Shown in pieces: positions 8,210 to 45,800 of a stretch of DNA of 64,000 nucleotides (its first letter is position 1; every line of letters starts with the position of its first letter). The notes beneath the pieces were generated by a model that was not told where the DNA came from, did no database searches, and saw only the letters and a list, made by a program, of their open reading frames with translations. Source of the stretch: Trueperaceae bacterium. Its GTDB lineage: Bacteria; Deinococcota; Deinococci; Deinococcales; Trueperaceae. The stretch covers positions 62,001 to 126,000 of the forward strand of contig JAABTL010000003.1 in NCBI GenBank assembly GCA_011389865.1, in the 5' to 3' direction. Made by a program: the position numbers and the translations under genes.

Positions 8210-9067
8210 TCAGGTGAACAGCGGCGCCATCTCCTCCTCGTCCACCAGCTCCTGCATCTCGGCGTCGGAGGGCCGCGCCTCGAAGCGCGCGGCCTCCTCG
8301 AGCAGCCGCGGCAGCAGCGTCACGTCGCCGACGGAGTTGAGGAACACGTGCGGGTTGCCCAGCACCCAGTGCACGGCCAGGCCGATGGCCCGCGGGTCCT
8401 CGAGCGGCTGGTACCAGGTGGCTCGGTCGGCCGGGCGCTCGCCCCAGGGGCGGCGGGTGATGGCCTTGATCGTCTGCATCGCCACGCCGCGCACCTCGCA
8501 GGCCGCCTCGAGCGCCTCGAAGTCGGCCGCGTAGCTCGGGTTCTGCATCATGACGAAGCTGTAGGGCAGGAGCACCGCGTCGAAGGGGAAGCGCCGCAGG
8601 CTCGCGAGGTGCCGCGCGGCGACCTCGACGCCGTGGCCGGTGACGCCGATGAAGCGCACCAGGCCCTCGTCGCGGGCCTCGATGGCGGCTTCCAGCGCCC
8701 CGCCCGGACCGAGGGCGACCTCCCACTCCTTCTCGTCGACCAGGTTGTGGAGCTGCCACAGGTCGACGTGGTCGGTGCGCAGTCGCTCCAGCGAGCGATG
8801 CAGCTCGTCGCGCGCGGCGGCGTGCTCGCGCTCGCCGGTCTTGGTGGCGAGGAACCAGTGGCTGCGCTCGCGCTCGATCCAGGGACCGAGCCGCAGCTCC
8901 GCGTCGCCGTACGAGGCGGCCGTGTCGATGTGGTTCAGGCCGTAGCGCTCGACGGTCTCCATGGCGCGGTCGGCCTCGTCCTGAGAGACCTTCGAGAGCG
9001 CGGCGGCGCCGAAGATGACGCGGCTGCTGAGGTGTCCGGTGCGTCCGAAGGGTGCCTGGGCGATCAT
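8210..9067 (-). CDS. Aldo/keto reductase
   Basis: 285-residue TIM-barrel oxidoreductase. The catalytic residues are in place: Asp in HIDTAASYG, Tyr in the same motif, Lys in FLATKTGER and His in LWQLHNL. The C-terminal NADPH-binding part is short and lacks the usual GxKxxxQ text. GGGAGG upstream of ATG 9067 supports the start. Substrate unknown; relatives reduce aldehydes or ketones. It stands alone, with a convergent peptidase downstream and the radical SAM gene upstream on the same strand. Confidence 0.85.
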
Positions 9068-9192
9068 GGGTGCCTCCCTACCGGTGCGGCCATGGGGGCG
9101 CTGCTCCGTGACCCCATCGTCAACCTTCGCGCGCCGCGGCGCAAGCGCGCGCGGGGCCGGGCCCGGGCCAGCGGTGCGCCCGGTCCCGCGGT

Positions 9193-10368
9193 TCAGTAGA
9201 CGAACTCGTCGATCGGGTACAGCGCCACGCGCGCCGCCGGCGCCGAGGCCCGGGCCGCCGCCCGGAGGTCGGCGAGCTGCGCGGAGAGCTCGGCGGGGGA
9301 GAGCGGCGCCAGCCCCTCCGCCTCCGCGCGCGCCGCGTAGGCGGACCCCGGCTGCACCACGAAGGGCGACAGGTACACGACGTCGCGCGTGTCGAGCGGC
9401 AGGCGCGCCAGCAGTCGCGCGCTGTCGCGGAGGTGCCCGGCGGCGAAGCGCTGGCCGCCGACGCCCGCCATCAGGATGACCTGCACGGCCAGACCGGCGC
9501 CCTTGAGCTGGGCGATGAAGGTGGCCGCCTCGTCCGCGCCGCCGGGCTTGTTCAGGTACGCCAGCAGCGGGTCGTGCCCGGTCTCGACCCCGATGGCGAC
9601 GCGGGCCAGTCCGAGCTCGCGGAGCTCGCGCCAGTCGCTCGCGGGCTTGCGTTCGCCGCTGAAGACGTCGACGAAGCCAGCGAGAGGCTGGTCTGGGAAG
9701 GCCGCGCGGGCCGCCTCGAAGATCGGCCGCAGGCGGGCGTTCGCGAGCACCAGCGCGTTGCCGTCGGCGAGGAAGATGCCGCGGCGGGTGTCGGCGTCGC
9801 GTCCGAGCAGGTCGCGCACGGCGGCGACGTGCGCCTCGAAGGCGGCCGCGGGACGCACCTCGAAGTCGCGGTCCTGGTAGAAGCTGCAGAACGTGCAGCG
9901 GTTCCAGCTACAGCCGAAGCTGGCCTGCAGCACGACCGCGCCGTACTGGTCGGGCGGCAGGATGGCGATGGGCGCGTAGGTCGCGAGGAAACGCCCGCGC
10001 TCGGCGCGCAGGCGGTCCGGCGTCCAGGATCGGGCCCGCTCCAGGCGGGCGACGAACTCCCGACGGCGCGTGGCCGGCACGGCGGCGTCCGCCTCCGCCG
10101 ACGCCGCCGCGACGACCTCGGCGGCCCGCGCGAACAGCCCCGTGGCCTCGGCCTCGGGCACGCGCCAGCGCCGGCGGACGCCGGCGACCGTCCGGCGGCC
10201 GAACAGCTCGGAGGCCAGCGACCGCTTGTAGGTGTGACCGCGGACGAAGTGGGTGCGCGGCCGCCCCTCCAGGTCGAGGCTGAGCACCTCGTCGCGCGCG
10301 GGGCTCAGCACCGTCGCGCCAGGCTGCAGCGCGACGTGCCATGCCCGGGAGACGTCTCGTGGGCCCAT
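9193..10368 (-). CDS. Radical SAM protein with CX4CX2C cluster motif
   Basis: 391 residues. ATG 10368 is chosen because TATCGT lies 6 nt upstream; longer starts are low-complexity. Around residue 160 is [20 protein letters not shown], a 4Fe-4S/SAM motif spaced CX4CX2C rather than the common CX3CX2C. Further conserved blocks are [26 protein letters not shown] and [12 protein letters not shown], matching the order of strands in a radical SAM barrel. The N-terminal 150 residues contain [13 protein letters not shown] and may be a substrate domain. It could be a B12-independent anaerobic-type enzyme of the B12-binding-like group, but no cobalamin motif is seen. Substrate unknown. Confidence 0.8.
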
Positions 10369-10472
10369 CGGGTCACGATACCGGGAGCGACGGTGGCGCC
10401 TCGGCACCGTGCGTGCCCGCGGGTCCGGCGACGACGTCGCCCGGCGGCGCGGTCCCCCGGCCTCTCCGGGCG

Positions 10473-10787
10473 TCAGGCCTTCTTGGTCTTGCGGCGAGCC
10501 GGGGTCTTGGCGGCCGGTGCCTCCGCGGCCTTGGCGGTGCGCTTCTTGGGCGCGGCTTGGGCGGCGTCGGTGCCCTTGGCGGCCGTCTTGGCCGCGCGCT
10601 TCGGCCGTGGCGCGAGCTCGGTCGCGAGCTCCTCCTCGGCCTGGCGCCAATCGTCGAAGTCGGCGCCGTGGGCGTGGCCGCGGGCGACGAACTTCTCGTA
10701 CGCGCGGCGCTCGATGGCGTCGGCCGGGATCTCGGGGGCAGCGGCCTTACGGGCCTTGCGGGTGGCTTTCGTGCCGGTTTCGGACAT
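10473..10787 (-). CDS. DUF2934 protein with histone H1-like basic tail
   Basis: 104 residues. The DUF2934 core is IERRAYEKFVARG followed by HGADFDDWRQAEEEL. The remaining 45 residues are Lys/Ala/Pro repeats ending in TPARRKTKKA, like bacterial histone H1 tails, which suggests nucleic-acid or nucleoid contact (inference). AGGAGG lies 9 nt before ATG 10787. Upstream is a long structured leader that may start at the promoter element near 11.1 kb. Function unknown. Confidence 0.75.
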   Translation of the reverse strand: MSETGTKATRKARKAAAPEIPADAIERRAYEKFVARGHAHGADFDDWRQAEEELATELAPRPKRAAKTAAKGTDAAQAAPKKRTAKAAEAPAAKTPARRKTKKA

Positions 10788-11021
10788 CGTTCGATTCCTC
10801 CTGGGGACGCGCTGCGTGTCGCCGGGGCGCGCCCGTCGCGAGCGGCGCGGCGGCCATCGGCCTGCGCGCCTGGCGTCAGGTTCCAGTCAGGTCGAACGCG
10901 GTGGCGCCGAGGGGATGCTCCGCGCCGACCGTGGGTGACGATAGCACCGGGGCGATGCTGGAAGATGAGGCCAACCGACGTGGTTGGACGTCGAACGTTC
11001 GAGGGCGGCGTCGGCATGGGA

Positions 11022-11062
11022 GAGGCCGGCGGCGTGCTGCATCGCAACGCGCCGCCGGCCTC
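11022..11062 (-). promoter_or_regulatory. Strong stem-loop in the DUF2934 leader
   Basis: Perfect 13-bp inverted repeat, GAGGCCGGCGGCG (11022-11034) and its complement (11050-11062), with a 15-nt loop. It lies about 40 nt into the putative minus-strand transcript and about 235 nt before the DUF2934 start. No T-run follows on either strand, so a regulatory or stabilising fold is more likely than a terminator. Confidence 0.5.
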
Positions 11063-11098
11063 GATGAGGACGGGTGACCGGAGGTAGCGGTTCCATCA

Positions 11099-11143
11099 CC
11101 CTGGTCGGAGATTAGGGGGCCGACCGTGAGGTCAGCGTGAGGT
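11099..11143 (-). promoter_or_regulatory. SARP-like direct-repeat promoter, copy A
   Basis: Minus strand: ACCTCACGCTGACCTCACG (11143-11125), then 10 nt, then -10 TAATCT (11114-11109). The unit CTCACG recurs after 11 bp with TGAC between. The plus strand shows GTGAGGT twice, 11 bp apart. About 30 nt downstream of the -10 box remain similar to copy B at 19.8 kb. SARP regulators are known to bind such 11-bp repeats just before a -10 box. Confidence 0.6.
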
Positions 11144-11206
11144 GGTGCCGCGGCCGCGCCGCTGCCACGGACAGGCCCGCAAGGGACGTGTCACCTTCTG
11201 GCTGAA

Positions 11207-11212
11207 TATGAT
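11207..11212 (+). promoter_or_regulatory. Leaderless -10 box of the BTAD regulator
   Basis: TATGAT is 5 nt before ATG 11218, in an unusually AT-rich patch. Copy A of the repeat element lies about 65 nt upstream on the other strand. Confidence 0.55.
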
Positions 11213-11217
11213 GCGGC

Positions 11218-14200
11218 ATGCGGCCCGAGGTGCGGCTCCTGGGTCCGGCGGCCGTCCGGATCGGCGCGAACGCGTGGGAGCCGGCGGCCGACCGGCGCAG
11301 CGCGGTGCTCTTCTACCTCGCGTACGCCGGGTCATGGGTACCGCGCGACGACCTCCTCTACCTGTTCTGGCCCGACTCGGACGAACAGAAGGGGCGCACC
11401 AACCTCCGGCAGCTGCTGGTGGCGCTGCGCGCGCTGCCGTTCGCCGAGGGCCTGGAGGCCGAGCGGACCCGGGTGCGGTGGCCCGTGGTGGCCGACGTCG
11501 CTGCCTGGTCCGATGCGCTTGGCCGCCGTGATCTCGGCGTCGCGCGCGACGGCTGGCCGCGGCCGCTGTTGGAGGGCTTCCGCCTCGCGTCGGCGCCGGA
11601 GTTCGAGTCCTGGCTCGAGCTGGAGCGCGCGGCGTGGCGGGAGCGCCTCCGTGGCGCGCTGCTCGAGGCGGTCGCCCGTGGCGGCGAGGACCTCGGCGAC
11701 GACGAGTCGGCCGGGCTGCTGGAGGGCTGGCTGGCGATCGAGCCGCTCGACGAGGAGGTCCTGCGGGCGTGGTTGGCGACCTGTGTCCGTGCGGGGCGGC
11801 GCACCGCGGCGCTGGCACGCTTCGCCGCCTTCGAGGCGCGCCTCGCCGCCGAGATGGGCCTTGCACCCGAGAGGGCGACGGTCGCGTTGGTCGATGCCTT
11901 GCGCGCGGAGTCGGGCGCCCAGGTGCTGGCGGCATTCGCCCCCGAGCCGATCGCCCAACCGCGCGGTCACCGCGGTCGCGGCGGCGCCTTCTTCGGTCGC
12001 GATGCCGAACTCGCGCGGCTCGAGACCGAGCTCCTGCGCGACGACTCGCCCGTCGTGACCCTCTTGGCCGCCGGCGGCGTCGGCAAGACGAGGCTCGCCA
12101 TCGAGGCCGCCGATCGCCTCGAAGCGCGCTTCCCCGACGGCGCCGCGGTGGTGTGGCTCGCCGGCGCGCGCGCCCTCAACGAGGTCGCCCCGGCCCTCCT
12201 CGATGCGCTGGGCCTCGAGCCGATACCGCTGCGATCGCCACTGGAGCAGGCGGCGGAGGCACTCGCCGAGCGGCGGATGCTCGTCGTGCTCGACAACCTC
12301 GAGCAGTTGCCGGGTGCCGATGCGGTCGTCGCCAGGCTCCGGTCGGATGCTCCCGGCGTGGCCTGGCTGCTGACCTCGCGCGAGCGGCTCGGCCTCGGCG
12401 CCGAGACCGTGTTCGAGATCGAAGGGCTGCCCGTGCCCGAGCCCGACGCGAGCGATCTCGAGGCGTACGGCGCGGTCACGCTGCTGCAGGCGCGGGCCCG
12501 GCGCGTGGGCCACCCACTGGACCTGCCGCGGCAGGCCGAGGCGGTCGTGCGCGTGTGCCGGGCGACCGCGGGCATGCCGCTGGCCCTCGAGCTCGCGGCC
12601 GGCTGGTTGCGGGTGCTGCCGATCGAGGACGTCGCGGACGAGCTCGAGCGGGGTCTCGAGGTCCTGGCGGCGACCGACGCCGACGTCGACCCGCGCCACG
12701 TGAGCATGCGGGTGGTGTTCGACGCCTCCTGGCGCGCGCTCTCGACGGCCGAGCGCTCCGCGCTGCTGCGCCTGTCGGTCTTCCGCGGCGGCTTCCGCGA
12801 CGAGGCGGCGCGCGAGGCGGCCGCGGTCGGACGGCCGCTGCTGCTCGCCCTGCGCAACAAGTCGTTCGTCTCGCTGTCCGCCGACGGCCGCTTCTTCCAG
12901 CACCCGCTGCTCGCGGTCTACCTGCGCGAGCGCGCGGCCGAGGACCCGGCCGCCGTGGAGGCGGCGCGGGAGGCGCACGCACGCTACTACCTCGACCACC
13001 TGCGTCGCTGGGAGGACGAGGGCCAACGCGGGCAGCGACGGGCGGCCGTGCACGCGCTGGCGTCCGAGCACCCCAACCTAGAGGCTGCCTGGGCGCTCGC
13101 GGTGGAGCGTCGTTGGTGGAAGCCTCTCGAGAAGGGCGGCGCGTTCTTCGGGTTGTCGTACGTGTTGGCCGGCCGGCCCGAGCGCTGGGCCGAGGTGCTG
13201 CGCGAGGCGCTGGCGCGGGTGCCGCCGACGTCCGTGACGTGGGGCGTGCTCGAGGTCCACGAGTCCTCGCTCGACGAGTTCGCCGGCCGGCACCGCGAGG
13301 CGTACGCGCGTCGGAGCCGCGCCGTCGAGGTGCTCCGGAGCCACGTCGACCCGTTCTCCCTTGCCTGGGGGCTGCTGCTCCTCTCGGAGCCTGCCGCCAG
13401 CCTCGGGCTCGCCGAGGAGGCCCGGGCGTGCCTGACGGAGTCGGCGGACCTGTTCGAGGCGCTCGGCGAGCGCGACCTGAGGGCCATGGCGCTCGACAAG
13501 CTCCACGCGGCCACCGACGATCCCGACGAGCGCGAGCGCATGTACGAGCGTCTGATGGCGGACGTAGGTACGGTGCACCACGGGGAGTACGAGATCCGGG
13601 TGATGCGCGACCATGGCGTCTTCCTGGCGCATGCGTACGGCGAGTACGCCGAGGCCCTGGCGCTGCTCGACCGCGCCATCGCGCTCGAGCGCGAGGACGA
13701 CTGGGTCGACGTCTACCTCGCCTTCTTCCTTGCCGATGCTGCCGCGGTCCGGCTGGCCGCCGGCGACCTCGCCGGTGCGGCCGAGCAGATGGCCGAGGCC
13801 ATCGAGCGCTTCGCATACAGCCGCCACCTCTTCCTCCACGCGGAACCGGAGATGCGGGCACTGGCGGCGACGATCGCCTGGCAGCGAGGCGACGCTGCGG
13901 GCGTCCGGGCGTGGATGCCGCCCGCGAGCGAGGCGGCGGCCTGCCTCGGCGGCCTGCTGCTGAGCAGCGAGATGGCCCGCGCCGACGATCCGGTCGCCGC
14001 GCGAGCCTTCGCCGAGCGTGCTCTGGCGCTCGCATCGCCGCCCCGCTCGGGTCGGGACGGGCACCTCGAGCGCGTGCGCGCGCTGGTCGTGGCGGCCGAG
14101 GCCGCCCTCGCGGCGGCCAACACCGACGCCGCCACGCGTGAGCTGACCGAGGCACTGGAGACGGCGATGCGCTGGCGCTTCCTGCCGGCGCTGCTGGAGG

Positions 14201-14418
14201 CCTGTGCCGCGGCGCTGCCGCTGCTCCCCGGAGATCTTGCCAGCGTGTTCGTGGGCTGGATCGCCCACCATCCGGCCGCGCCCTACGCGCAGCGCGTCCG
14301 CTGGGCTGCCGATGCGGCGACGACCGGCAGTCCGCTCGAGGCCCCCGCCGAACGCGACGCGCGGTGGGCGCAGGCGCTCGAGGTGGCGCGCCGGGTGCGC
14401 GAAGTGCTCGCGGCATAG
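11218..14418 (+). CDS. AfsR-like transcriptional regulator (BTAD + ATPase + TPR)
   Basis: 1066 residues. The N-terminus (VRLLGPAAVRIG, then DLLYLFWPDSDEQKGRTNLRQ) is the winged-helix/OmpR-like half of a SARP-type regulator. Residues about 90-230 form the helical bacterial transcriptional activation domain. An NB-ARC/STAND ATPase follows, with Walker A AAGGVGKTRLA near residue 285 and Walker B MLVVLDNLEQLP. The last 500 residues are TPR-like helices rich in Glu and Ala. Such proteins bind direct repeats and recruit polymerase in an ATP-gated way. The ATPase differs clearly from those of the two other BTAD proteins here. Targets may be the 11-bp repeat promoters (inference). Confidence 0.85.
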   Translation: MRPEVRLLGPAAVRIGANAWEPAADRRSAVLFYLAYAGSWVPRDDLLYLFWPDSDEQKGRTNLRQLLVALRALPFAEGLEAERTRVRWPVVADVAAWSDALGRRDLGVARDGWPRPLLEGFRLASAPEFESWLELERAAWRERLRGALLEAVARGGEDLGDDESAGLLEGWLAIEPLDEEVLRAWLATCVRAGRRTAALARFAAFEARLAAEMGLAPERATVALVDALRAESGAQVLAAFAPEPIAQPRGHRGRGGAFFGRDAELARLETELLRDDSPVVTLLAAGGVGKTRLAIEAADRLEARFPDGAAVVWLAGARALNEVAPALLDALGLEPIPLRSPLEQAAEALAERRMLVVLDNLEQLPGADAVVARLRSDAPGVAWLLTSRERLGLGAETVFEIEGLPVPEPDASDLEAYGAVTLLQARARRVGHPLDLPRQAEAVVRVCRATAGMPLALELAAGWLRVLPIEDVADELERGLEVLAATDADVDPRHVSMRVVFDASWRALSTAERSALLRLSVFRGGFRDEAAREAAAVGRPLLLALRNKSFVSLSADGRFFQHPLLAVYLRERAAEDPAAVEAAREAHARYYLDHLRRWEDEGQRGQRRAAVHALASEHPNLEAAWALAVERRWWKPLEKGGAFFGLSYVLAGRPERWAEVLREALARVPPTSVTWGVLEVHESSLDEFAGRHREAYARRSRAVEVLRSHVDPFSLAWGLLLLSEPAASLGLAEEARACLTESADLFEALGERDLRAMALDKLHAATDDPDERERMYERLMADVGTVHHGEYEIRVMRDHGVFLAHAYGEYAEALALLDRAIALEREDDWVDVYLAFFLADAAAVRLAAGDLAGAAEQMAEAIERFAYSRHLFLHAEPEMRALAATIAWQRGDAAGVRAWMPPASEAAACLGGLLLSSEMARADDPVAARAFAERALALASPPRSGRDGHLERVRALVVAAEAALAAANTDAATRELTEALETAMRWRFLPALLEACAAALPLLPGDLASVFVGWIAHHPAAPYAQRVRWAADAATTGSPLEAPAERDARWAQALEVARRVREVLAA

Positions 14419-14434
14419 CGCCGCGGGCCTCGTT

Positions 14435-14998
14435 TCAGCCGCGTGGGTTCACGGAGATTCGGGCGAGGGCGGGGTGAAGCGCGAACGTCAGGCATGCGTC
14501 GTCGGACGGCTGCGGCGCGAACCCGAGCCGCTCGAGCAGCCCGATGGACGCCGCGTTGTCCGACGCGGTGCGCGCCACGATCTTCGTGAGGCCGAGGGGC
14601 CCGAAGCCGTGGGCGACGGCGAGCGCGAGCGCCTCGCGCATGAGGCCGCGCCGCCGGTAGGGGGAGCGCATCACGTAGCCGACCTCGCCCGTCCCGTCGG
14701 CGAACCCGCGGTAGAAGCCGATCGTGCCGACCACGGTGTCGCGGCCGGCGAGGCAGACGCCCCAGTGCACGGTCTCCCCACGGTCGGCGTCGGCCTCGAT
14801 GCGCCGCAGCATCGCGAGCGCCTCCGCCGCGCTGGACGCCGTCACACCGTCGTACACGGAGATGTCGACGATGTCGGCGACGTCGTCGGGCCGGACGGCG
14901 CGCAGCACGACGCGCCGGCCCGACAGGGTGGGGGTCCGCGCCGTCCCCGGGATCGAGGCGTCGGCGGAGGCTTCGTGGGCCACGCGGCATGATGGCAC
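14435..14998 (-). CDS. GNAT N-acetyltransferase, RimJ/RimL type
   Basis: 187 residues from GTG 14998; GTG 14983 behind CATCAT is an equally reasonable start. Core blocks are LSGRRVVLRAVRPDD, GEVGYVMRSPYRRRGLMREAL (acetyl-CoA pyrophosphate loop, RRRGL) and NAASIGLLERLGF. RimJ/RimL relatives acetylate protein N-termini or small amines; the substrate is not predictable. It converges on the BTAD gene with only 16 nt between stops. Confidence 0.85.
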   Translation of the reverse strand: MPSCRVAHEASADASIPGTARTPTLSGRRVVLRAVRPDDVADIVDISVYDGVTASSAAEALAMLRRIEADADRGETVHWGVCLAGRDTVVGTIGFYRGFADGTGEVGYVMRSPYRRRGLMREALALAVAHGFGPLGLTKIVARTASDNAASIGLLERLGFAPQPSDDACLTFALHPALARISVNPRG

Positions 14999-15058
14999 GC
15001 CGACGCGGACGACGGGCGGCGGGCGCTTGGCAGCGGACGATGGGCGCTGGGCCGCCGC

Positions 15059-15101
15059 CTCACGATGACATCACGATGGCCCTCGTAGGCTCCGCCGCGT
15101 G
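15059..15101 (+). promoter_or_regulatory. SARP-like direct-repeat promoter, copy C
   Basis: CTCACGATGACATCACG (15059-15075) is followed by exactly 10 nt and -10 TAGGCT (15086-15091), then GTG 7 nt later. TCACGATG repeats with an 11-bp period. It matches copies A and B at all but two of 17 positions. It points toward the small ORF and the hydrolase. Confidence 0.6.
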
Positions 15102-15145
15102 GGGCCCGCGGGTCCCGCAAGTCCCTTCCCCACGAAGGAGCTCGC

Positions 15146-15202
15146 ATGCGCGCATCGAAGGCGACTCGCATCAGCCCTTGGCCGAACGGCGTCAACCGCT
15201 AG
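15146..15202 (+). CDS. 18-codon upstream ORF, possible gene relic
   Basis: ATG 15146 follows a strong ribosome site, GAAGGAG, by 7 nt and reads MRASKATRISPWPNGVNR before TAG. The stop is in the same frame as the hydrolase whose GTG lies 16 nt further on. The final 24 nt match the final 24 nt of that hydrolase at 20 positions (WPNGVNR versus WPEGVNR plus stop). It may be a regulatory uORF, or the fused ends of a deleted tandem copy. Confidence 0.4.
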   Translation: MRASKATRISPWPNGVNR

Positions 15203-15217
15203 ACGGCGGGCGACCAT

Positions 15218-16207
15218 GTGCGGGCATCGCGCAGAACGTCACGTAGCGCACCCACGCGTCGCCTCGGGTCCGTCCGCCTCGCCGTGCCCGGCGTAGGGCT
15301 CGCCATGGCGGGGTCGGGCCTGGCGCAGCCCCCGGCCACCGAGTCCGGCTTCGTGCAGGTCGAGCCCGACGTGCGCCTCTATTACCAGCGGTACGGCACG
15401 GGCACGCCTACGGTGTTCATCCCCAACCGGCTCGAGCTCGTGCACGCGTTCGCCTCGTTGCTCCCCTTCCACGACGTGGTCACGTGGGACCCCCGCGGGC
15501 GCGGCCTCTCCGATCGGCCCACGGCGTCCGAGCGCTACGGGATCGATGCCGAGCTGGCCGACGTCGAGGTCCTGAGGCGCCATTTCGGTGCCGAGCGGGT
15601 CACCTACGTGGGGACCTCGCTCTGGGGCAACCTCGCGGTCCTGTACGCCGCCCGCCATCCGGAGAGCGTGGCGGGCGTCGTCGCCATGGCACCGCTCCCG
15701 ATCGCTCATGGTCTGCGACGCGACTCGCTGAAGAGACCCATGCCGAACGTCCACGCGCAGCGGCTGGAGCTCGACCGGATGCGGGTCGACGGGCGCGTCC
15801 GGTCGCAGCCGTACGCCTACTGCGTCCTCGAGAAGTACGTCGAGTACGCCGACTCGTACGTGGACCCGGCCGCGATGGCGCCGTTCCTCGCGGCCAACCT
15901 TTGCCAGTACGCCAACGAGCAGGCCTCCCGGCAGGCGCTGGTGATCGACGGCATGTTCCGCAGCTTCGGGCGCTGGGACTGGCGCGCCGACGCCGAGGCC
16001 GTGGTGGCGCCGGTCCTCCTGCTGTTCGGGGAACACGAGACGTGGCGCACGGACGGCGTTCGCGCGTACGCCGACCACCTGCGCGACGTCGGTTGGCTGG
16101 AGGTGCCGCGCGCCGGCCACCACCTGTGGAACGACCGCGCGGACGTGGTCCTCCCCATGCTCGACGCGTTCTTTCGCGGCGGGTGGCCGGAGGGGGTGAA
16201 CCGCTAG
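15218..16207 (+). CDS. Alpha/beta hydrolase, probably secreted
   Basis: 329 residues from GTG 15218; ATG 15305 is a possible shorter start. A Sec-like hydrophobic segment ends at GSGLAQPPA, which favours the longer form. The fold is marked by VVTWDPRGRGLSDRP, the nucleophile elbow GTSLWGNL and a late His in VPRAGHHLWNDR; the acid is probably in LLLFGEHETW. Relatives are epoxide or haloalkane hydrolases and esterases; activity unknown. Its stop overlaps the convergent dppC-like stop by 4 bp. Confidence 0.8.
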   Translation: MRASRRTSRSAPTRRLGSVRLAVPGVGLAMAGSGLAQPPATESGFVQVEPDVRLYYQRYGTGTPTVFIPNRLELVHAFASLLPFHDVVTWDPRGRGLSDRPTASERYGIDAELADVEVLRRHFGAERVTYVGTSLWGNLAVLYAARHPESVAGVVAMAPLPIAHGLRRDSLKRPMPNVHAQRLELDRMRVDGRVRSQPYAYCVLEKYVEYADSYVDPAAMAPFLAANLCQYANEQASRQALVIDGMFRSFGRWDWRADAEAVVAPVLLLFGEHETWRTDGVRAYADHLRDVGWLEVPRAGHHLWNDRADVVLPMLDAFFRGGWPEGVNR

Positions 16208-17124
16208 CCCGGGCGGCGGTGCCCAGGTACTCCGGCGCCGCGCGCGACCGGGGCGCGCCGGGCGAGGCGTGCGCCGCCTCCCGCCCCGGCACGGTCCGCC
16301 AGCGCGTCGCGCAGGGCGTCGCCGAGGAGGTTGGCGCCGAGCACGGCGGCCGTGATCGCCGCGCCGGGGGCGAGCATGAGCCAGGGCGCGGCCGGCAGGT
16401 GGTGGCGGGCGCGCGCCAGCATGTCGCCCCAGTCGGCGGTGGGGGGCTGCACGCCGAGACCCAGGAAGCCGAGCCCCGCGAGGGCGACGACCACGAAGCC
16501 CATCGTCACCGTTGCCTGCACGACCACCACGCCGGTCGCCGCGGGCAGGACGTGCCGCAGTAGCACCCGGCGGGGCCGCGCCCCGCTCGCGACGGCGGCC
16601 TCGACGTAGGGGAGTTCGCGCGTCGTCAGGATCACGCTCCGCACCAGGCGCGCGAAGACCGGGGTCTCGGCGACGGCGAGGGCGATGGCGGCGGGCCACA
16701 GGCCGGGACCGAGCGCACCGACGATCACCAGCGCCAGCAGCAGCGGGGGGCAGATGAGCAGCGCGTCGACGAGCCGCATGAGGAGGCCGTCGAGCCGGCC
16801 GGGCGCGGCGCCCGCCAGCAACCCGAGGGCGCCGCCCGCCGCGGCCGCCGCCAGCACGGTCACGACGGCCACCCACAGCGAGACGCGTCCGGCGTGGAGC
16901 GCCCGCGCGAGCGTGGAGCGGCCGAGCTCGTCGGTCCCGAGCGGCTCGTTCCAGGAGGGCGGCTGCAGGCGGCGGCGCAGGTCGACCTCGGTCGGTCCGC
17001 GCGGCGAGAGCCACGGCGCCAGCAGCGTCGCGACGAGCAGGACCGCGAGCAGCGTCGCCCCGACGACGCCCGACGGGTGGAGACGGCGGCGCCGCCCGGG
17101 CCGCGCGGCCGGGGCGCCGGTCAC
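16204..17124 (-). CDS. Peptide ABC transporter permease, DppC/OppC type
   Basis: 306 residues with about six membrane helices. The N-terminal PLGTDELGRSTLARALHAG block is diagnostic of DppC/OppC proteins; the EAA loop is YVEAAVASGARPRRVLLRHVLP. GTG 17124 overlaps the previous gene's stop as GTGA, so the permeases are translationally coupled. The C-terminal tail after DALRDALADR is Arg/Gly-rich and atypical. The DppD and DppF ATPases that usually follow are missing; the next gene converges. Confidence 0.9.
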   Translation of the reverse strand: MTGAPAARPGRRRRLHPSGVVGATLLAVLLVATLLAPWLSPRGPTEVDLRRRLQPPSWNEPLGTDELGRSTLARALHAGRVSLWVAVVTVLAAAAAGGALGLLAGAAPGRLDGLLMRLVDALLICPPLLLALVIVGALGPGLWPAAIALAVAETPVFARLVRSVILTTRELPYVEAAVASGARPRRVLLRHVLPAATGVVVVQATVTMGFVVVALAGLGFLGLGVQPPTADWGDMLARARHHLPAAPWLMLAPGAAITAAVLGANLLGDALRDALADRAGAGGGARLARRAPVARGAGVPGHRRPG

Positions 17125-18050
17125 CGGTAGCGCACCCGCGGGTCGAGCCGGAGGTAGGTGAGGTCGACCAGCAGGCCGAGCGCCAACACGGCCACGGCGG
17201 TGACGAGCACGACGCCCTGGACGAGGGCGAGGTCGCGCGCGAGGATCGCGTCGACCGCCAGGTGGCCGAGGCCGGGCCAGCCGAACACGGCCTCGACGAA
17301 GACGACGCCCCCGAGCATGCGGCCGAGGTCGATGGCCGCCACCGTCACCACCGGGGCGAGCGCGTTGCGCAGGCCGTGCCGCAGCAGCACGCTGGGCCGC
17401 GAGAGCCCGCGAGCACGGGCGGCGACCACGTGCGGCGCGGCGAGGGCGTCGAGCAGCGCGGCGCGCGTGACGCGCGCGAGCGGCGCCGCCGAGGCGAGCC
17501 CGAGCGAGAGGGCCGGCAGCAGCAGGTGGCGCCAGCCCCCGCCCCCGGACGCCGGAAGCCAGCCGAGCGCGAGGGAGAAGGCGTAGAGCAGGAGCAGGCC
17601 CGTCCAGTACACGGGAACGGCCGCGCCGAGGAGCAGCGCGCCCGTGAGCAGGGGATCGAGCCAGCTGCGGGCGAAGGCGGCGGCCGCGACGCCGACGATC
17701 AGCCCCAGCGCCAGGGCCAGCGTCAGCGCAGCAGCGGCGAGGGCGACGGTGGCGGGCAGGCGGCCGCGCAACTCGTCCGCCACGGGACGCCCGCTGCGCC
17801 GGGAGGTGCCGAGGTCGCCGCGCAGCACGGCCCCGAGGTACGCGGCGGCCTGCTGCGGCCAGGGGCGGTCGAGCCCCGCCTCGATCCGCATGCGTTCGCG
17901 CTGCGCCTCCGGGAGGCCCAGGATCCCCGGCCCCAGCAGGGCGACCAGCGGGTCGCCCGGGGCGGCCGCGACGAGACCGTGCACCACGACCAGCAGCAGG
18001 GCGACGGAGACGGCGCCGCCGCCGAGGCGGGCGAGCAGGTAGGCGACCAC
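17121..18050 (-). CDS. Peptide ABC transporter permease, DppB/OppB type
   Basis: 309 residues, second gene of the peptide operon. GTG start. It shows the GDLGTSRRSGRPVADELRGR block and the EAA loop of DppB proteins, plus about six hydrophobic segments. Together with the DppC-like protein it forms the channel for peptides, nickel or similar solutes. It starts 15 nt after the solute-binding gene. Confidence 0.9.
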   Translation of the reverse strand: MVAYLLARLGGGAVSVALLLVVVHGLVAAAPGDPLVALLGPGILGLPEAQRERMRIEAGLDRPWPQQAAAYLGAVLRGDLGTSRRSGRPVADELRGRLPATVALAAAALTLALALGLIVGVAAAAFARSWLDPLLTGALLLGAAVPVYWTGLLLLYAFSLALGWLPASGGGGWRHLLLPALSLGLASAAPLARVTRAALLDALAAPHVVAARARGLSRPSVLLRHGLRNALAPVVTVAAIDLGRMLGGVVFVEAVFGWPGLGHLAVDAILARDLALVQGVVLVTAVAVLALGLLVDLTYLRLDPRVRYR

Positions 18051-18065
18051 GCCGCGTGGCGCCGC

Positions 18066-19577
18066 TCAGCGGGCGGCGGCGCCCGTCCCGTTCGCGTCGA
18101 TCCTAGCGCCGCGCAGGTCGAGCTGGAACGACGAGCCCGGCAGGCGCTCGCCCTCCAGGCCGCCGCGCTTCGCGAAGGTGCCCACGTGGTGGTAGAGCGG
18201 CAGCATCGGCAGGTCGGCCAGCGCCAGCTCCTGCGCCTCGCGGTACGCGGCTGCCCGCTCGGGGCCGTCCTCGGTAGCGGCGCCGCGCTCCAGGAGCGCG
18301 TCGAACGCGTCGCTGGCGTAGCGGCTGGTGTTGTTGCTGCCGATCTCGCGGCTGTGCAGCGCCATGGAGAGCATGAAGTGCGGATCGAGCGTGTCCGACC
18401 CCCAGAACCCGAGCGTGAGCTCCGCGTCCGGCGACGTGACGATCTCGAGGAGGGTGGCGAACTCGTGGATGCGCAGTTCGACGCGCAGGCCGATCTCGGC
18501 GAGCGCCGCCTGGACGTACTGTGCCACGTCTTCGAGGCCGCCGTCGGTGGCCATGTCGAGCACCAACCGGGTGCCCTCGGCACCGGCCTCGCGCAGGAGC
18601 TCGCGGGCGCGTGCGGGGTCGTACGGGCGATCGTCGGGGGCGTCCAGGGCGTAGCGCACGAGTGGCGACAGGGGGCCGACGGGCGGCAGCGCGAGGCCGC
18701 TGAAGAGCGCGTCGACCAGCAGCTGGCGGTCGAGCGCGTGCGCGATCGCGCTGCGGACGCGCGGATCGCCGAGCACGGGGTGCTCCACGTTCATCCCGAG
18801 GTACGTCGTGCGGTCGCTGGGGTAGCGGCCGAGCGCCACGCCCGGCTCTCCCTCGAGCGCGAGGAAGGCGTCGGCCGCGAGGTCGTGGATGAGGTGCAGG
18901 TCGCCGGCGCGGAAGGCGATGAGCCGTGCCGCGGCCTCGGGGATGACGCGGTAGTGCACGCCGGCGAGCGCGGGCGCGCCGCCCCAGTAGTCGGGATCGG
19001 CGGCGATCTCGACGACCTCGCCCTCGCGCCAGGCGACGAAGCGGAACGGTCCGGTCCCCACGGGCGCGCGGCCGAGCTCGGGGCCGGCGCCCGGGGGCAC
19101 GATCGCGGTCGCGGGGAAGGTCAGGTTGGCCAGCAGCGGCACGAAGGGCGGGTCGCTGACGAGGTCGAGCGTGTGGTCGTCGACGACCACGATGTCGTCG
19201 ATGGTGGCCACGAGGAACGCGCCGCGGGCGCCGGTGGCGGGGTCGGCCAGGCGGCGCAACGAGGCGGCGACGGCGGCGGCGTCCAGCGGGCGGCCGTCGT
19301 GGAAGCGCACGCCGCGACGGAGTTCCAGCCGCAGCACGGTGGGCTCGGGGCGGCTCCAGGCGACCGCCAGGCCGGGTTCGATGGCGCCGTCGGCCCCCAA
19401 CCGCAGCAGCGTGTCGTAGAGCTGGTTGGTCACCATGAACGAGTACCCCTCGATGGCCCGGTGGGGGTCGAGGGAGGTCGGGTTGAGGGGCAGGGCCGTG
19501 ACGAGCACCTGCGCGGCGGCCAGGGCCGACAGGAGCGCCAGGACCATGACCCCAACGAGTCGCATGCCTCTCGTCAT
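18066..19577 (-). CDS. Peptide-type ABC solute-binding protein (family 5)
   Basis: 503 residues. ATG 19577 is chosen: it follows GGAGTGAAACG, and a signal peptide ends in SALAAAQ. The longer frame to GTG 19778 would bury the signal. Family 5 blocks include LPLNPTSLDPHRAIEG, LRRGVRFHDGRPLDAAAVA and YLGMNVEHPVLGDPRVRSAI. It captures oligopeptides or similar ligands outside the membrane for the two permeases downstream. It is likely transcribed from TAATCT at 19627 and perhaps also from the repeat promoter near 19.8 kb. Confidence 0.9.
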   Translation of the reverse strand: MTRGMRLVGVMVLALLSALAAAQVLVTALPLNPTSLDPHRAIEGYSFMVTNQLYDTLLRLGADGAIEPGLAVAWSRPEPTVLRLELRRGVRFHDGRPLDAAAVAASLRRLADPATGARGAFLVATIDDIVVVDDHTLDLVSDPPFVPLLANLTFPATAIVPPGAGPELGRAPVGTGPFRFVAWREGEVVEIAADPDYWGGAPALAGVHYRVIPEAAARLIAFRAGDLHLIHDLAADAFLALEGEPGVALGRYPSDRTTYLGMNVEHPVLGDPRVRSAIAHALDRQLLVDALFSGLALPPVGPLSPLVRYALDAPDDRPYDPARARELLREAGAEGTRLVLDMATDGGLEDVAQYVQAALAEIGLRVELRIHEFATLLEIVTSPDAELTLGFWGSDTLDPHFMLSMALHSREIGSNNTSRYASDAFDALLERGAATEDGPERAAAYREAQELALADLPMLPLYHHVGTFAKRGGLEGERLPGSSFQLDLRGARIDANGTGAAAR

Positions 19578-19626
19578 CGTTTCACTCCGTCCATCTCGGT
19601 CCGGGGCCGGTTTCGTAGGTGGGACG

Positions 19627-19632
19627 AGATTA
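19627..19632 (-). promoter_or_regulatory. -10 box of the peptide importer operon
   Basis: Minus strand TAATCT, identical to the hexamer in repeat copy A, about 50 nt before the ATG at 19577. Confidence 0.45.
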
Positions 19633-19787
19633 GCAGGTCGCGCGGCGGCGCGGTTCGAGCGACGCGTGGGCGCACGGCCCGGACCGGCATGACACGAGCT
19701 CCGGCGGACGATGAGAGGGACGTCTCCACCATCCGCCGTGGGCCCCGTTCTGGTGACGCGAGGTGGCGGTTCGATCACCCTGCGCGG

Positions 19788-19822
19788 ACGTTAGCGAGCG
19801 CAGCGTGAGGTCAGCGTGAGGT
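19788..19822 (-). promoter_or_regulatory. SARP-like direct-repeat promoter, copy B
   Basis: Minus strand ACCTCACGCTGACCTCACG (19822-19804) is identical over 19 nt to copy A. It is followed by 10 nt, then TAACGT (19793-19788), then a downstream stretch matching copy A (AGGGTGATSGAACCGC). It sits 30 bp beyond the nitronate monooxygenase stop and points at the peptide importer operon, 210 nt away. Confidence 0.6.
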
Positions 19823-19851
19823 CGATCCTGCGGCGCGGCGGCCGCGCGAGG

Positions 19852-21342
19852 TCAGGCCTGGCCGAGCAGGTAGTCCACCACCTCGGCCGCCGTGTACGAC
19901 GTCGCGCCCGGCTTGAGGACGCGGGTGATCGCCGCGAGGTCGTCGCCGCTGGTGACCAGTGGCAGCTCGGGGGTCGTCTGACCCTTCTGGACCTGGCCGA
20001 CGCCGACGTTGGCCATCAGGGCGTTGCACAGGCACTTGCGGCCGACGGTCTCCGCGATGTCGCCGCCCTTGGCGACGTAGTCCGCCACCGGCTCCGAGGC
20101 GCAGCGGTAGGCGAGCTTGCCCTCGTCCGTGCGCACCACCTCGCGCAGGTAGCCGAGGTCGCAGACGCGCGTGCGCTGCTCGTACACCTCGCTCTCGGAG
20201 AGGCTACCGGGGAGGGTGACCACCTTGAAGGGGAAACCCGTGGGCGAGGCCTTGGCGTCCGTGAGGACGTCGGTGTCGCCGGCGAGCACGCGGTCGATCA
20301 CCTGCTGCTTGACGGCGGTCTCGAAGCCCGACTCGTCGCAGTAGGCGAAGATCGTACCGACCTGCACGCCGGCGGCCCCCTCGTCCAGTGCCGCCGCGAG
20401 CGCATCGGGGGAGCCGCTCGAGCCGGCGAGCCAGAAGGGCATGCCCAGCGCGCGCATCTGCTCGAGGTCGGCGCGATCGCGGTCGCCGTAGACGGGCTGG
20501 CCGCGTTCGTCGAAGGTCTTGCCGCCGCGCGGCGGCGCGTTGTGGCCGCCCGCGGTGGGCGCCTCGACGATGAAACCCTGGATGGCGCCGGTGGCCTTCT
20601 TCAGCAGGATGCTCGCCAGGGCGTGGGTCGAGATGATCGGGAAGAAATCCGGGCGCCCGAGCTCGGGCAGAGCGTCACCGCCGAGCTCCGCGGGGTCGAA
20701 GTGGGCGACCACCGGCTCGCCGTCGCGCGGGACCGTGGCGTCGATGCGCATCGACGTGCGGCGGTGCTGCGACAGCTCGTCGAGGATGCCCGGGATGTCG
20801 CGCGGGATCCCGGCACCCATGAGCACGTGGCTCACGCCCGCGAGCATGGCGCCGTAGAGCGTCGCCATGTTGGGCAACTGGATCTTGGTGAGCAGGTTGA
20901 TGCCGATGGGGCCGTCGTGGCCCTCCTTCGCCAGGAACACCTCGGTGTAGCCGGCCAGCGCCATCAGACCGCGGTGGAAACGGTTGCCCTCGACGGTCGG
21001 CAACGGCAGCCGGAGGTACGGCTTGTCGGCCGGGCGCCCGTCGGGCAGGAAGTAGCGGCGCAGCGTGTCCTTCACGATGTCGCTGAACGGGAAGTGCTCC
21101 ATCGCGCGGCGCACGTGGCCGCCGACGTCGCCGTCCTGCAGGCGGCGGACCAACACCGAGTCGATGCCCGTGCCGGAGACGACGCCGAGCTGCCCGCACA
21201 GGGCGACCGCCTTGGCCAGGCGCCAATTGGAGACGGCGACGCCCATGCCGCCTTGGATGATCGTCGGGTGGCCGCCACCGGCGAGTCCCGCCGTCGCGAG
21301 CGCCGGCGTCCTGCCAGGGTTGGGGAATCGTGCGTCGCTCAT
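19852..21342 (-). CDS. Nitronate monooxygenase-like FMN oxidoreductase (PfaD-like)
   Basis: 496 residues, longer than the usual 310-380 of Ncd2-type enzymes and closer to PfaD-like proteins. FMN-barrel blocks are TIIQGGMGVAVSNWRLAKAV, LGVVSGTGIDSV, FIVEAPTAGGHNAPPRGG (His in the active site) and GAAGVQVGTIFAYCDESG. A C-terminal extension contains KCLCNALMANVGVGQV and TTPELPLVTSGDD. Known relatives oxidise nitronates or act as enoyl reductases; which applies cannot be told. TGAGGA precedes ATG 21342. It is monocistronic. Confidence 0.8.
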   Translation of the reverse strand: MSDARFPNPGRTPALATAGLAGGGHPTIIQGGMGVAVSNWRLAKAVALCGQLGVVSGTGIDSVLVRRLQDGDVGGHVRRAMEHFPFSDIVKDTLRRYFLPDGRPADKPYLRLPLPTVEGNRFHRGLMALAGYTEVFLAKEGHDGPIGINLLTKIQLPNMATLYGAMLAGVSHVLMGAGIPRDIPGILDELSQHRRTSMRIDATVPRDGEPVVAHFDPAELGGDALPELGRPDFFPIISTHALASILLKKATGAIQGFIVEAPTAGGHNAPPRGGKTFDERGQPVYGDRDRADLEQMRALGMPFWLAGSSGSPDALAAALDEGAAGVQVGTIFAYCDESGFETAVKQQVIDRVLAGDTDVLTDAKASPTGFPFKVVTLPGSLSESEVYEQRTRVCDLGYLREVVRTDEGKLAYRCASEPVADYVAKGGDIAETVGRKCLCNALMANVGVGQVQKGQTTPELPLVTSGDDLAAITRVLKPGATSYTAAEVVDYLLGQA

Positions 21343-42817: not shown

Positions 42818-45800
42818 ATGGCGCGTTGGTCGCTGCGCATGCTCGGCCCGTTCGTCGCGGAACGCGACGGCGCGCCGCTGCCCGGCTTCCGCTCGGACAA
42901 GGTCCGGGCCCTGCTGGCGTTCCTCGCCGTGCACGTCGACCGACCGTGGTCGCGGACGACGCTGGCCGACCTGTTGTGGCCCGAGCAACCCGAGCCGATG
43001 GCCCGCGGCAGCCTTCGGAACGCCCTGTCCAACCTGCGCCAGGTGATCGGCGACCGCGACAGCGAGCCGCCGTTCTTGCGCGTCACGCAGGCCGCGGTGC
43101 AGGCGAACGCGGCCGCCGAGCGCTGGGTCGACGTCGACGACTTCCTGCGCCTGCGGGCGCGCGCGGGCGATGTTGACGTCGCCGACGCCGAGCCCGAGGC
43201 GGTGGCGCCGCTGGAGCGGGCTCTGTCGCTCTACCGTGGCCCCTTCCTGGAGGGTTTCGTCGTACCCAGCGCGCCGTTCGAGTCGTGGTTGGCGACCACG
43301 CGTGAGCAGCTGCAACGCGAGGCGGTGCGTGCCGCGCGCACCCTGGCGTTCACGCACGCGCGTCAGGGCGACGTGGAGGCAGCAACGGTGGCTGCCCGAC
43401 GCTGGCTCGATCTCGAGCCGTGGGACGAGGCGGCGCATCGCCAGCTGGTCCGGCTACTGCTGCTGCAGGGCCAACGTGCCGCCGCACTGGCGCAGTACGA
43501 GGCACTCCGAGCGCGCCTGGCCGAGGACCTCGGGGTCGAGCCGGAGCTCGAGACGACGCAGCAGGACGAGGCGATCCGTGCCGAGCGCTCCTCGCGGTCG
43601 GTGGTCGGCCCCACGCCCGTCGCCTGGCCGGGCCTGCGGCGGAACGCGCCGGGGTCGGAGCCGGAGCCTGCGTTCGTTGCCCGCGAGGAGGAGATGCGGC
43701 GGCTGAGCGATGTTCTGGAGCACGTCGTCGCGGGTGGCGCGGGCGTCGCCTTCGTGACGGGCGAGCCGGGCAGCGGCAAGACCGCGCTGCTGGCGGAGTT
43801 CGCCCGCCAGGCCATCGTCGACCACGCCCAGCTGGTCGCCCTCTGGGGTCAGGGGAATGCCTTCACGGGCAGGGGCGATCCCTTCGAGCCGTTCCGGCAC
43901 GCCGCCCAGATGTTGTCGGGTGAGGTGGAGGCCCCACCGGCCGCCGGCGCGAGCCGGGCCGAGGCGGCGCGGCGCCTGTGGCGCTGCCTGCCGTCGACAC
44001 TCGACGCCCTCCTCGAGCGCGGTCCGGACCTCATCGACCGCTTCGTCTCGGGCCGGACCCTGCTCGACTTCGCCCGCCGTCACGCCGGGGTGACCGCCGA
44101 TCAACTGCGCCGGCTCGAGCGGCGAGCGGACGAATCGATGGGCGCGCCGGGCCCGCGGGCCGCCGAGCGCCAGACGGAGTTCTTCGAACAGTTCACCCGC
44201 GTCATCGGCACGCTCGCCGAACGGCACCCCCTCCTGCTCGTCTTGGACGACCTGCAGTGGATCGATCCCGGCTCGAGCGACCTTCTCTTCCACTTGGCGC
44301 GCGGGGTGGCGGGGCGTCGCGTTCTACTGCTGGGTGCGTACCGCGCAGAGGAGGCGGCGCTGCGGCCGGGCGGCGGGGGGCGCTCCCTGGTCAGCGCCGT
44401 CGAGGAGCTCCTGACGGCCGACGGGAGCGTGCGCATCGACCTGACGAACGCCGGTGGCCGGCGGTTCGTGGATGCCCTGCTCGAAAGCGAGCCGAACGCG
44501 CTGCGTCCCGCGTTTCGCCGCAGCCTCGCGGAGCGGACGTCCGGTAACCCGCTGTTCACCATCGAACTGCTGCGTGGGCTGCAACTGCGTGGCCACCTGC
44601 GGCGCGATCGGCACGGGCGTTGGGTCGAGGGACCGGCGCTGAGCTGGGACGATGTGCCCGCGCGTGTTGAGGCCGTCATCGAAGGGCGGATCGGCCACCT
44701 GTCTGCGACGTGCCGCGAGCTGCTCACGATCGCCGCAGTCGAGGGCGAGCAGTTCACCGCCGAGGTGGCCGCGGCCGTGATCGGCCTACCGCTGGTGCAT
44801 GCGTGCGAGCTGCTGAGCGAAGAGGGGGCTCGACGACACCAGCTGGTGGCGGCGCACACCGTGCGCAGCGTCGGGGGCGCGAGCCTCGCGCTCTACCGCT
44901 TTCGGCACGGCCTGTTCCAGACGTACCTCTACCAGCGCCTCGACCCGGTGGAGCGGGCGCGCCTGCACGGTCGCGTCGGCCGCGAGTTGCGAAGCCTTTA
45001 CCGACCCGACCCCGGCCGCTACCCGCGTGTGGCCCTGTCGTTGGCGCGCCACTTCGAGGCCGCAGGCCTGGCTGGCGACGCCGTGGGCGCCCACGCCGAC
45101 GCAGCGCGTCACGCCCTCGGCCTGTCGGCCAACGCCGAGGCCGTTGCCCATCTGCGCCGGGGACTGGAACTGCTGCGCACGCTTCCAGCCTCCAAGGAGC
45201 GTGACCGCCAGGAGTTCGAGATGCAGTTGGGCCTCGGCCCGCCACTGACGGCCATCAAGGGGTGGGCGCCGCCGGAGCTGGCGGTGGCCTACGCCCGTGC
45301 CGAGGAGCTGAGTGCCGGCATCGACGACGCCGCGCAGTTGGTCCCAGCCCTGTGGCTACTGTCGGTGTTCCACCTCGGCCGTTCGGAGCATCAGGAGGTG
45401 CAGCGGCTGAAGGAGCGGATGAGGCACTTGGCGTGGAAGACGGGCGACCCGGCGCTGGTCGCGCTGGCCCGCCTGAACACCGCCACCTTCTTTCAAGGAC
45501 GCTTCGTGGAGGCGCGTCGCCAGCTGGAGGAGGCCTGCGCGGACCCGGATGTCGGGCTGCAGCGGCAGCTCGCTCGCCGCTTCGGCATGGCGCCCGCGGT
45601 CGTGGCGCTCGCGTTCCTGTCCGAGTGCCTGTGGCTCCTGAACCGCCCGCGTGAGGCCGACCGGCGTGGGTGCGAGGCGCGCGCGTTGGCGGAGCGGATC
45701 GACCACCCGATGACGACGTGCTACGCCGTCGGGCGCGCATGCTGGCTCGCGGCCCTGCGCGGCGACGGCGAGGCCACCCGTGCCTTCGCCGCCGAGCTGC

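Follow-up and report, generated by a model that had tools for sequence, protein, structure and literature searches.

Putative afs-box-type operator-promoters of AfsR-like regulators in Trueperaceae point to a SARP-type regulon outside the actinomycetes

OmpR/PhoB-type regulators act on 11-bp direct repeats, as in the Pho box, which overlap the -35 region and lie ahead of the -10. The protein AfsS has a size of 63 aa. Its gene, afsS, is adjacent to that of AfsR and is activated by AfsR, as stated in a review. The afs box has been described as 11-bp units at -40 to -30 and -29 to -19, with contacts to the first eight bp of the repeats and with R92 of AfsR contacting T-38 and T-27 (PMC10936776). 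For SARP operators it has been reported that 8 bp separate the 3' repeats from the -10 and that the direct repeats of small SARPs show an 11-bp or 22-bp phase and overlap the -35 region (PMC10936776, PMC10972967). Small SARPs consist of the SARP domain only, and the larger AfsR is held back by its NOD and TPR parts and freed by ATP (PMC10936776). Within the Deinococcota the only open-access paper on a SARP that we found, among the titles listed, deals with Deinococcus deserti, where Deide_19260 is a CheY-SARP response regulator whose targets are still to be studied (PMC3564903, in the part available). This protein resembles the regulator described here in being a SARP protein from the Deinococcota and differs from it in its receiver-domain architecture.

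The locus compared here with these systems lies in a 64-kb stretch of Trueperaceae DNA, which was analysed as a whole and is called the window in the following. According to the original prediction CTCACGMTGACMTCACG is found there 10 nt ahead of TAATCT and the same arrangement returns at 15.06 and 19.8 kb, and all three copies could be confirmed as exact (Table 1). The pattern CTCACGMTGACMTCACG-N10-TANNNT occurs three times in the window with 0 mismatches, with an expectation of 0.00, and 0 of 100 shuffles reached three. A search of the window for the 17-mer without the -10, allowing up to three mismatches, led to the same three places only, all of them exact; the count of the 17-mer alone is not significant under these settings, with 1.09 places expected and 8 of 100 shuffles reaching three. 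The boxes and their spacing can be read directly from the DNA, copies B and C having the same layout as copy A, namely two units, six bases and TAnnnT. Copies A and C are alike in sequence well outside the box, and the flanks of copy B are unlike those of the other two. Between copy B and the hydrolase gene there is also an 18-codon ORF (15146-15202), which, judged by eye, looks like the two ends of another hydrolase gene joined together, the sister genome G014 having this gene intact (L103:8466-9419).

Table 1: Coordinates of the features around copies A, B and C in the window.
Feature	Position	Strand	Remark
Radical SAM protein, next leftward gene after the DUF2934 gene	9193..10311	-	family match on longer ORF 9193-10650
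DUF2934 protein, 104 aa, first called gene left of copy A	10473..10787	-	about 320 nt from copy A
Conserved two-hairpin element behind copy A	11022..11101	-	hairpin 1 11072-11101, hairpin 2 11022-11062
Copy A, full pattern	11109-11141	-	exact match
TAATCT, proposed -10 of copy A	11109..11114	-	6 bp past unit 2
Box A, two 11-bp units	11121..11142	-	CCTCACGCTGA (11142-11132) and CCTCACGGTCG (11131-11121)
TATGAT, possible -10 of a leaderless BTAD transcript	11207..11212	+	by eye
AfsR-like regulator, 1066 aa, proposed activator	11218..14418	+	SARP domain (winged helix and BTAD) and NB-ARC
Box B, two units	15058..15079	+	CCTCACGATGA and CATCACGATGG
Copy B, full pattern	15059-15091	+	exact match
TAGGCT, proposed -10 of copy B	15086..15091	+	
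Alpha/beta hydrolase (Abhydrolase_1), exported-looking N-terminus	15218..16207	+	proposed copy B target
Second ABC permease in the same gene run	16204..17124	-	named from sequence by eye, no family search
ABC permease (BPD_transp_1)	17121..18050	-	
Oligopeptide-type solute-binding protein (SBP_bac_5)	18066..19577	-	first gene left of copy C
Two-hairpin element, second copy, directly behind copy C	19702..19780	-	
Copy C, full pattern	19788-19820	-	exact match
TAACGT, proposed -10 of copy C	19788..19793	-	
Box C, two units	19800..19821	-	CCTCACGCTGA and CCTCACGCTGC

A BTAD gene had also been predicted to start 75 bp from copy A, and this distance is right (ATG at 11218), but the gene lies on the plus strand while copy A reads on the minus strand. 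Copy A is divergent from the BTAD gene and its -10 reads leftward, where a conserved two-hairpin element of about 80–90 nt begins about at the position at which a transcript from copy A would begin. The sequence CAGGGTGATNGAACCGCNACCTCNNGTCACC, which in copies A and C comes right after the -10, has only four occurrences in 39 genomes with up to three mismatches; all four immediately follow such a box and a second hairpin comes after each of them. Using a covariance model we found six copies of the element in five of the 39 genomes, each behind a TCACG-type box, and as this search scored at most 106 first-look candidates per genome further copies may have been missed. The sixth copy, in genome G008, was found by the RNA model alone and is located behind a three-unit TCACG box beside an apparent orthologue of the BTAD gene, with the next same-strand called gene 3.7 kb from the element. 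In genome G004 the contig ends about 0.9 kb from the element, and the sole gene called before this end lies on the opposite strand. The folding z-scores of the six copies are -6.1, -2.1, -2.5, -3.6, -2.3 and -4.3 and hairpin 1 is paired to 90.5% over the six sequences. Covariation in hairpin 1 of these six sequences was not above that of column shuffles (163 of 500 reach it), and the covariation term in the fold of the alignment was unfavourable (+3.28). A search of window positions 9000-21000 against Rfam returned two matches, both under the gathering score and neither on the element, and no match at the gathering score was obtained for the stretches L197 and L105. A short conserved peptide encoded in the element had been considered as well and was dropped by eye, the frame being shifted by one missing base in G004 and G008. 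Because no same-strand gene is called near the element in G008 and G004, the transcript driven by copy A is most likely a short structured RNA, be it an sRNA or the leader of the DUF2934/radical-SAM genes 320 nt further on; the function of this RNA is inferred.

Copy A could instead be the operator of the divergent BTAD gene and serve its auto-repression or auto-activation, the leftward transcript being incidental. Its position would suit such a role, as the transcription units on either side of it diverge and the BTAD start is 75 bp away, and at one locus of a relative (L172:7135) a box does stand directly ahead of its BTAD gene. Against this, both the -10 of copy A and the two-hairpin element are on the leftward strand, and the element follows the box in six of six copies, including those of G008 and G004 without a same-strand gene called nearby. 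We regard this explanation as unlikely, and it is not excluded.

For the 1066-aa protein encoded beside copy A Pfam assigned a BTAD domain (PF03704, E 6.7e-9) and an NB-ARC domain (PF00931, E 1.4e-7, residues 263-483) with a visible P-loop GGVGKT. An N-terminal OmpR-like winged helix followed by BTAD is present as judged from the aligned winged-helix region and the profile; Trans_reg_C was not reported by Pfam for this protein. No TPR family was found in it by Pfam at E 0.001, and about 580 C-terminal residues are without assignment. We built a SARP profile from 16 SARP regions of this and related genomes with the window protein as head, and its best solved relatives were AfsR (8hvr, E 6e-17) and EmbR (2fez, E 2e-16), with matches spanning about 227–237 profile positions. 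A single-sequence phmmer search of the whole protein against the PDB did not reach AfsR and gave only plant NB-ARC proteins at E 0.2. With this domain homology, the window protein is, on the evidence of its sequence, a member of the AfsR-like group with a SARP domain plus NB-ARC. In an ungapped alignment, mapped by eye, its Q65 and A69 fall on T88 and R92 of AfsR and its R64 on the phosphate-contacting R87. Among the regulators beside TCACG boxes position 69 is variable and position 65 is Q in the readable helices, except for C3, which has A and a partly different word. The window encodes two more large BTAD proteins, at 42818-46255 (+) and 61189-64000 (-, running past the window end), with another helix type (SLRNALSNLRQ and NLRNALSNLHR, respectively); a word-free scan showed no boxes near these two genes at the threshold used.

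With TAnnnT set to start at -12, the boxes coincide with the 22-bp afs frame, and the two TCAC motifs have their T at -38 and -27, respectively. As in AfsR–afsS from Streptomyces coelicolor, a SARP domain and NB-ARC are combined within one large protein and two 11-bp direct repeats take the place of the -35 (-40 to -19, according to the available part of the source), and several relatives carry a boxed gene for about 60 aa directly behind the regulator gene. Unlike in that system, the repeat words differ and there are many paralogues here, and among the proposed targets are exported hydrolases, lipoprotein-like proteins and ABC importers. The small SARPs ActII-ORF4, DnrI and RedD share the 11-bp-phase repeats ahead of the -10, and in contrast to the window protein with its SARP domain and NB-ARC they are described, in the sources as far as available, as having the SARP domain only. 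The gap of 6 bp to the -10 was measured here; for afsS it holds only if the -10 is at -12, which is not stated in the accessible part of PMC10936776.

To a search of the whole 3.05-Mb genome, the check proposed along with the original prediction, the core TCACGNTGACNTCAC gave five exact places and ten with at most one mismatch, and the reversed pattern gave none. An association with BTAD genes was indeed observed, as all five exact copies of the core are no more than about 5.4 kb from one. With up to three mismatches the full pattern was found at nine places in the genome versus one for the reversed control. The two exact copies not located in the window are on contig C28 at 6079 and 6662, between BTAD genes and each immediately 5' of one of two paralogous exported-looking proteins. 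A third copy on this contig is degenerate with three 11-bp units and precedes an exported-looking protein of 71 residues, and one C28 copy is one base shorter in spacing. The middle one of the three C28 BTAD genes (L020 5166-5864) shows an in-frame stop and no NB-ARC part in sight. Only one of the five one-mismatch places, C11:212333, has a BTAD hit in its vicinity, at a distance of about 2 kb, and in this place CAGCAT stands at the correct spacing instead of TAnnnT. PF03704 has 21 hits in this genome, 20 of them above the cut-off, and a word-free scan around the BTAD genes yielded five rows in 17 stretches, namely copy A, two sites of C28, one of C2 and a weak three-unit site (L075:18352) that was not counted. 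The C2 site (L066:11761, +) carries another word, GACTGATAGCC GACTGAGACCC with TAGCCT, and sits between two BTAD genes and before an 863-aa lipoprotein-like FG-GAP protein. Weaker word-guided matches at L071:12921 and L073:11488 are suggestive only. The putative regulon of the TCACG word comprises few genes and is mainly a local one.

A search of 39 genomes of the family for the TCACG word with a -10 gave 18 hits in 8 of them, versus one hit for the reversed pattern. Fourteen of these sites are outside the genome of the window, on 12 fetched stretches, and nine of the 14 share the stretch with a BTAD gene identified by profile; one occurs with a BTAD fragment (L105), one with a C-terminal BTAD part recognised by text (L103), and three have no BTAD gene in the fetched stretch (L096, L099 and L101). 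The genes downstream of the relatives' sites encode alpha/beta hydrolases, the DUF2934 and radical-SAM proteins, an oligopeptide-binding protein together with permeases, and further proteins of small or medium size with an exported look. Flanks and downstream genes are not the same for copies in other genera, but the spacing is the same or nearly so. In G015, a genome listed in the same genus, only fragments of the counterpart of the window BTAD gene are left (L105).

We also compiled 60 BTAD stretches of relatives, chosen from PF03704 hits without looking for the motif; these loci were hand-picked from a part of the hit list, mostly from short N-terminal matches, and G000, G014, G015 and G016 were excluded. 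Self-similar 9-mers ahead of noncoding TAnnnT numbered 82 at period 11 versus 2–28 at nine other periods. Under a stricter rule period 11 gave 25 sites in 20 of the 60 loci, 17 of them no more than 300 nt from a called gene, compared with 1–11 sites (0–3 near genes) at eleven other periods; 40 of the 60 loci had no site at the threshold. Only four period-11 sites were present in 20 BTAD-free 20-kb stretches of the same family, two being N runs and one a palindrome, and these controls hold fewer noncoding TAnnnT (1263 versus 3620). The words vary and include TCACG, G[CT]CACGG, CCACG, CTG[AC]AACGG, TTTGAGG, GTTTGAGGC, GTGGAACG and others. Nine extra stretches of relatives and 20 of other families were likewise picked from the listed matches. 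The former contributed eight more period-11 sites, five of them in one low-GC locus. The latter, stretches with large BTAD genes from families f2–f5 of the order, showed 20 period-11 sites in 12 of 20 loci, with 5 of the 20 sites at most 300 nt from a called gene and with 0–9 sites at nine other periods, the nine belonging to period 12. In a low-GC member of the family (L205, G025:C633) five AACG-type period-11 sites surround two BTAD genes. BTAD hits at E 1e-8 were obtained in 82 of 91 genomes drawn evenly from the phylum, the own family included. The idea of one SARP motif whose copy A faces the BTAD gene has to be modified accordingly: as far as the sequence can tell it is of the SARP type, but many words exist and copy A faces away.

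In order to compare words and regulators we took all 25 sites of the Trueperaceae set, each paired to its nearest BTAD gene, and the 20 sites of other families as a second set. Similarity of the operators correlated with that of helix alpha-3 of the regulators in the Trueperaceae set (r 0.23, p 0.004), as opposed to similarity of the flanks (r -0.01, p 0.52). In the other families the values are r 0.36 (p 1e-4) for the helix and r 0.18 (p 0.02) for the flanks. Compared with the helix, the rest of the SARP domain performs equally well in the Trueperaceae set, at r 0.28 (p 0.001) and with a partial r of 0.10 for the helix, and less well in the other families, at r 0.26 with a partial r of 0.28. 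All p values are rough, since sites of one locus and close relatives are not independent. A first test with r 0.58 was discarded as inflated, having used 19 of the 25 sites by judgement (without L145:923, L147:7306, L113:11345, L156:11306, L160:7952 and L148:8237) and some regulators paired by hand. The covariation observed supports, as a comparison of sequences can, the pairing of the word with the adjacent regulator. Of five site-bearing loci whose regulator has an NLRPLL helix, four carry CCACG words and the fifth (L167) carries CAACG. ATAACG occurs in three loci with the helix RNLRQELFRL and a fourth locus with the same helix (L217) shows no site. Regulators with NLRQLL are found in three loci with and nine without a site, those with NLRPLL in four with and three without, and those with NLRKLL in two with and one without; the NLRQLL locus L113 has ATAACG, not TCACG. 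The word is not determined by the recognition helix alone, since regulators with the same helix core may or may not have a site beside them and in one case have a different word.

Could the boxes belong to a response regulator of the OmpR/PhoB type, with the BTAD genes as bystanders? The Pho box is similar in its 11-bp direct repeats ahead of the -10, the genome contains 11 Trans_reg_C hits outside BTAD genes, and in Streptomyces the sites of PhoP and AfsR overlap (PMC10972967, in the part available). However, the contigs of the exact copies, C28 and C33, carry none of these 11 hits and no response regulator hit outside BTAD genes, the boxes are concentrated around BTAD genes with hardly any in BTAD-free stretches, and unlike for PhoB/PhoP the words here differ among the BTAD subtypes and follow them. 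Moreover, no phosphate gene is among the families found downstream in the window, and altogether we consider this origin of the boxes very improbable. That the repeats are only duplicated promoter copies or chance in high-GC DNA, without any regulator, can hardly be maintained. It is true that copies A and C are alike far past the box and that the two exact C28 copies precede paralogous genes, but copy B, the C28 copies and those of other genera have different flanks and downstream genes at the same or nearly the same spacing, and the period-11 peak is missing at other periods and in the control stretches.

Regarding the genes next to the boxes, in the 60 loci an exported-looking protein is encoded by 8 of the 17 genes that come first downstream of a site, versus 38 of 240 other genes (p 0.004). 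The export heuristic is crude and misses proteins with long or mis-called starts, e.g. L156:11358. A second class consists of proteins of about 60 residues, a group which we built from eight seeds chosen for their position and whose members include L147, L152, L153, L156, L205, L208, L218, L220 and L222; none of the members tested was matched significantly by Pfam. Including the eight seeds, the searched stretches contain 29 small ORFs that match this group at E ≤0.5, and 21 of these, seven seeds and 14 others, start -100 to 400 nt from the stop codon of a BTAD gene. When 20 such genes were checked, nine had a period-11 pair with at least 8 of 9 identities ahead of a start-proximal TAnnnT, three had 7 of 9 (L170, L211 and L154) and six had none. 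In L210 a repeat at 12 bp was seen by eye, and L221 was outside the scan span, a separate scan listing a site 45 nt behind that BTAD gene. Five small genes behind or beside BTAD genes (L116, L147, L156, L208 and L218) start 12–13 nt past the first T of TAnnnT, as would fit leaderless transcripts, for which there are no transcript data. By analogy with the position of AfsS relative to AfsR, the protein of about 60 aa may act as a feedback partner of its regulator.

From these data we conclude that the element is very probably an afs-box-type operator-promoter of an AfsR-like regulator, with binding, activation and transcript starts being inferred. The predicted existence of a SARP-type regulon outside the actinomycetes is thereby supported, namely by the afs frame, the profile matches to AfsR and EmbR, the linkage to BTAD genes, the period-11 peak and the covariation. 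For such an operator-promoter we propose that two side-by-side SARP domains of the regulator would each take one 11-bp unit and so replace the normal -35, and that the bound domains would retain RNA polymerase with sigma at the TAnnnT -10. The regulator would most likely be the 1066-aa protein, although a homologue of the same subgroup might act instead. Its NB-ARC part may block activity as long as a signal and ATP are missing, which is transferred from what the accessible part of the literature reports for AfsR; the signal, too, is inferred. Box B would then drive the exported hydrolase, box C the oligopeptide ABC importer, and box A as well as box C, directly behind it, the short structured RNA.

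What is new here is the scale, with many AfsR-like regulators sharing one frame and using many words. In a wider picture, for which belief and doubt are in balance, the order would be equipped with insulated one-gene circuits in which every AfsR-like STAND regulator has its own word in the fixed register of the afs box and an adjacent target, either an exported protein or a partner of about 60 aa, together forming a SARP protein–DNA code, and the branch of the window would in addition switch on a new two-hairpin sRNA. In the literature that we examined SARP operators have so far been described promoter by promoter in Streptomyces. The present set assigns a good dozen operator words to adjacent AfsR-like regulators as their likely partners, at a near-fixed spacing and in a phylum far from the actinomycetes. 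With this knowledge the sequence specificity of SARPs becomes directly testable, and activators with possibly no cross-talk come within reach. The findings also suggest a greater age or mobility for sigma-appropriating activation of the AfsR type than for the regulation of antibiotics. For the numerous uncharacterised regulators of the Deinococcota they offer a first guess at a role, which would be the control of neighbouring exported proteins and importers.
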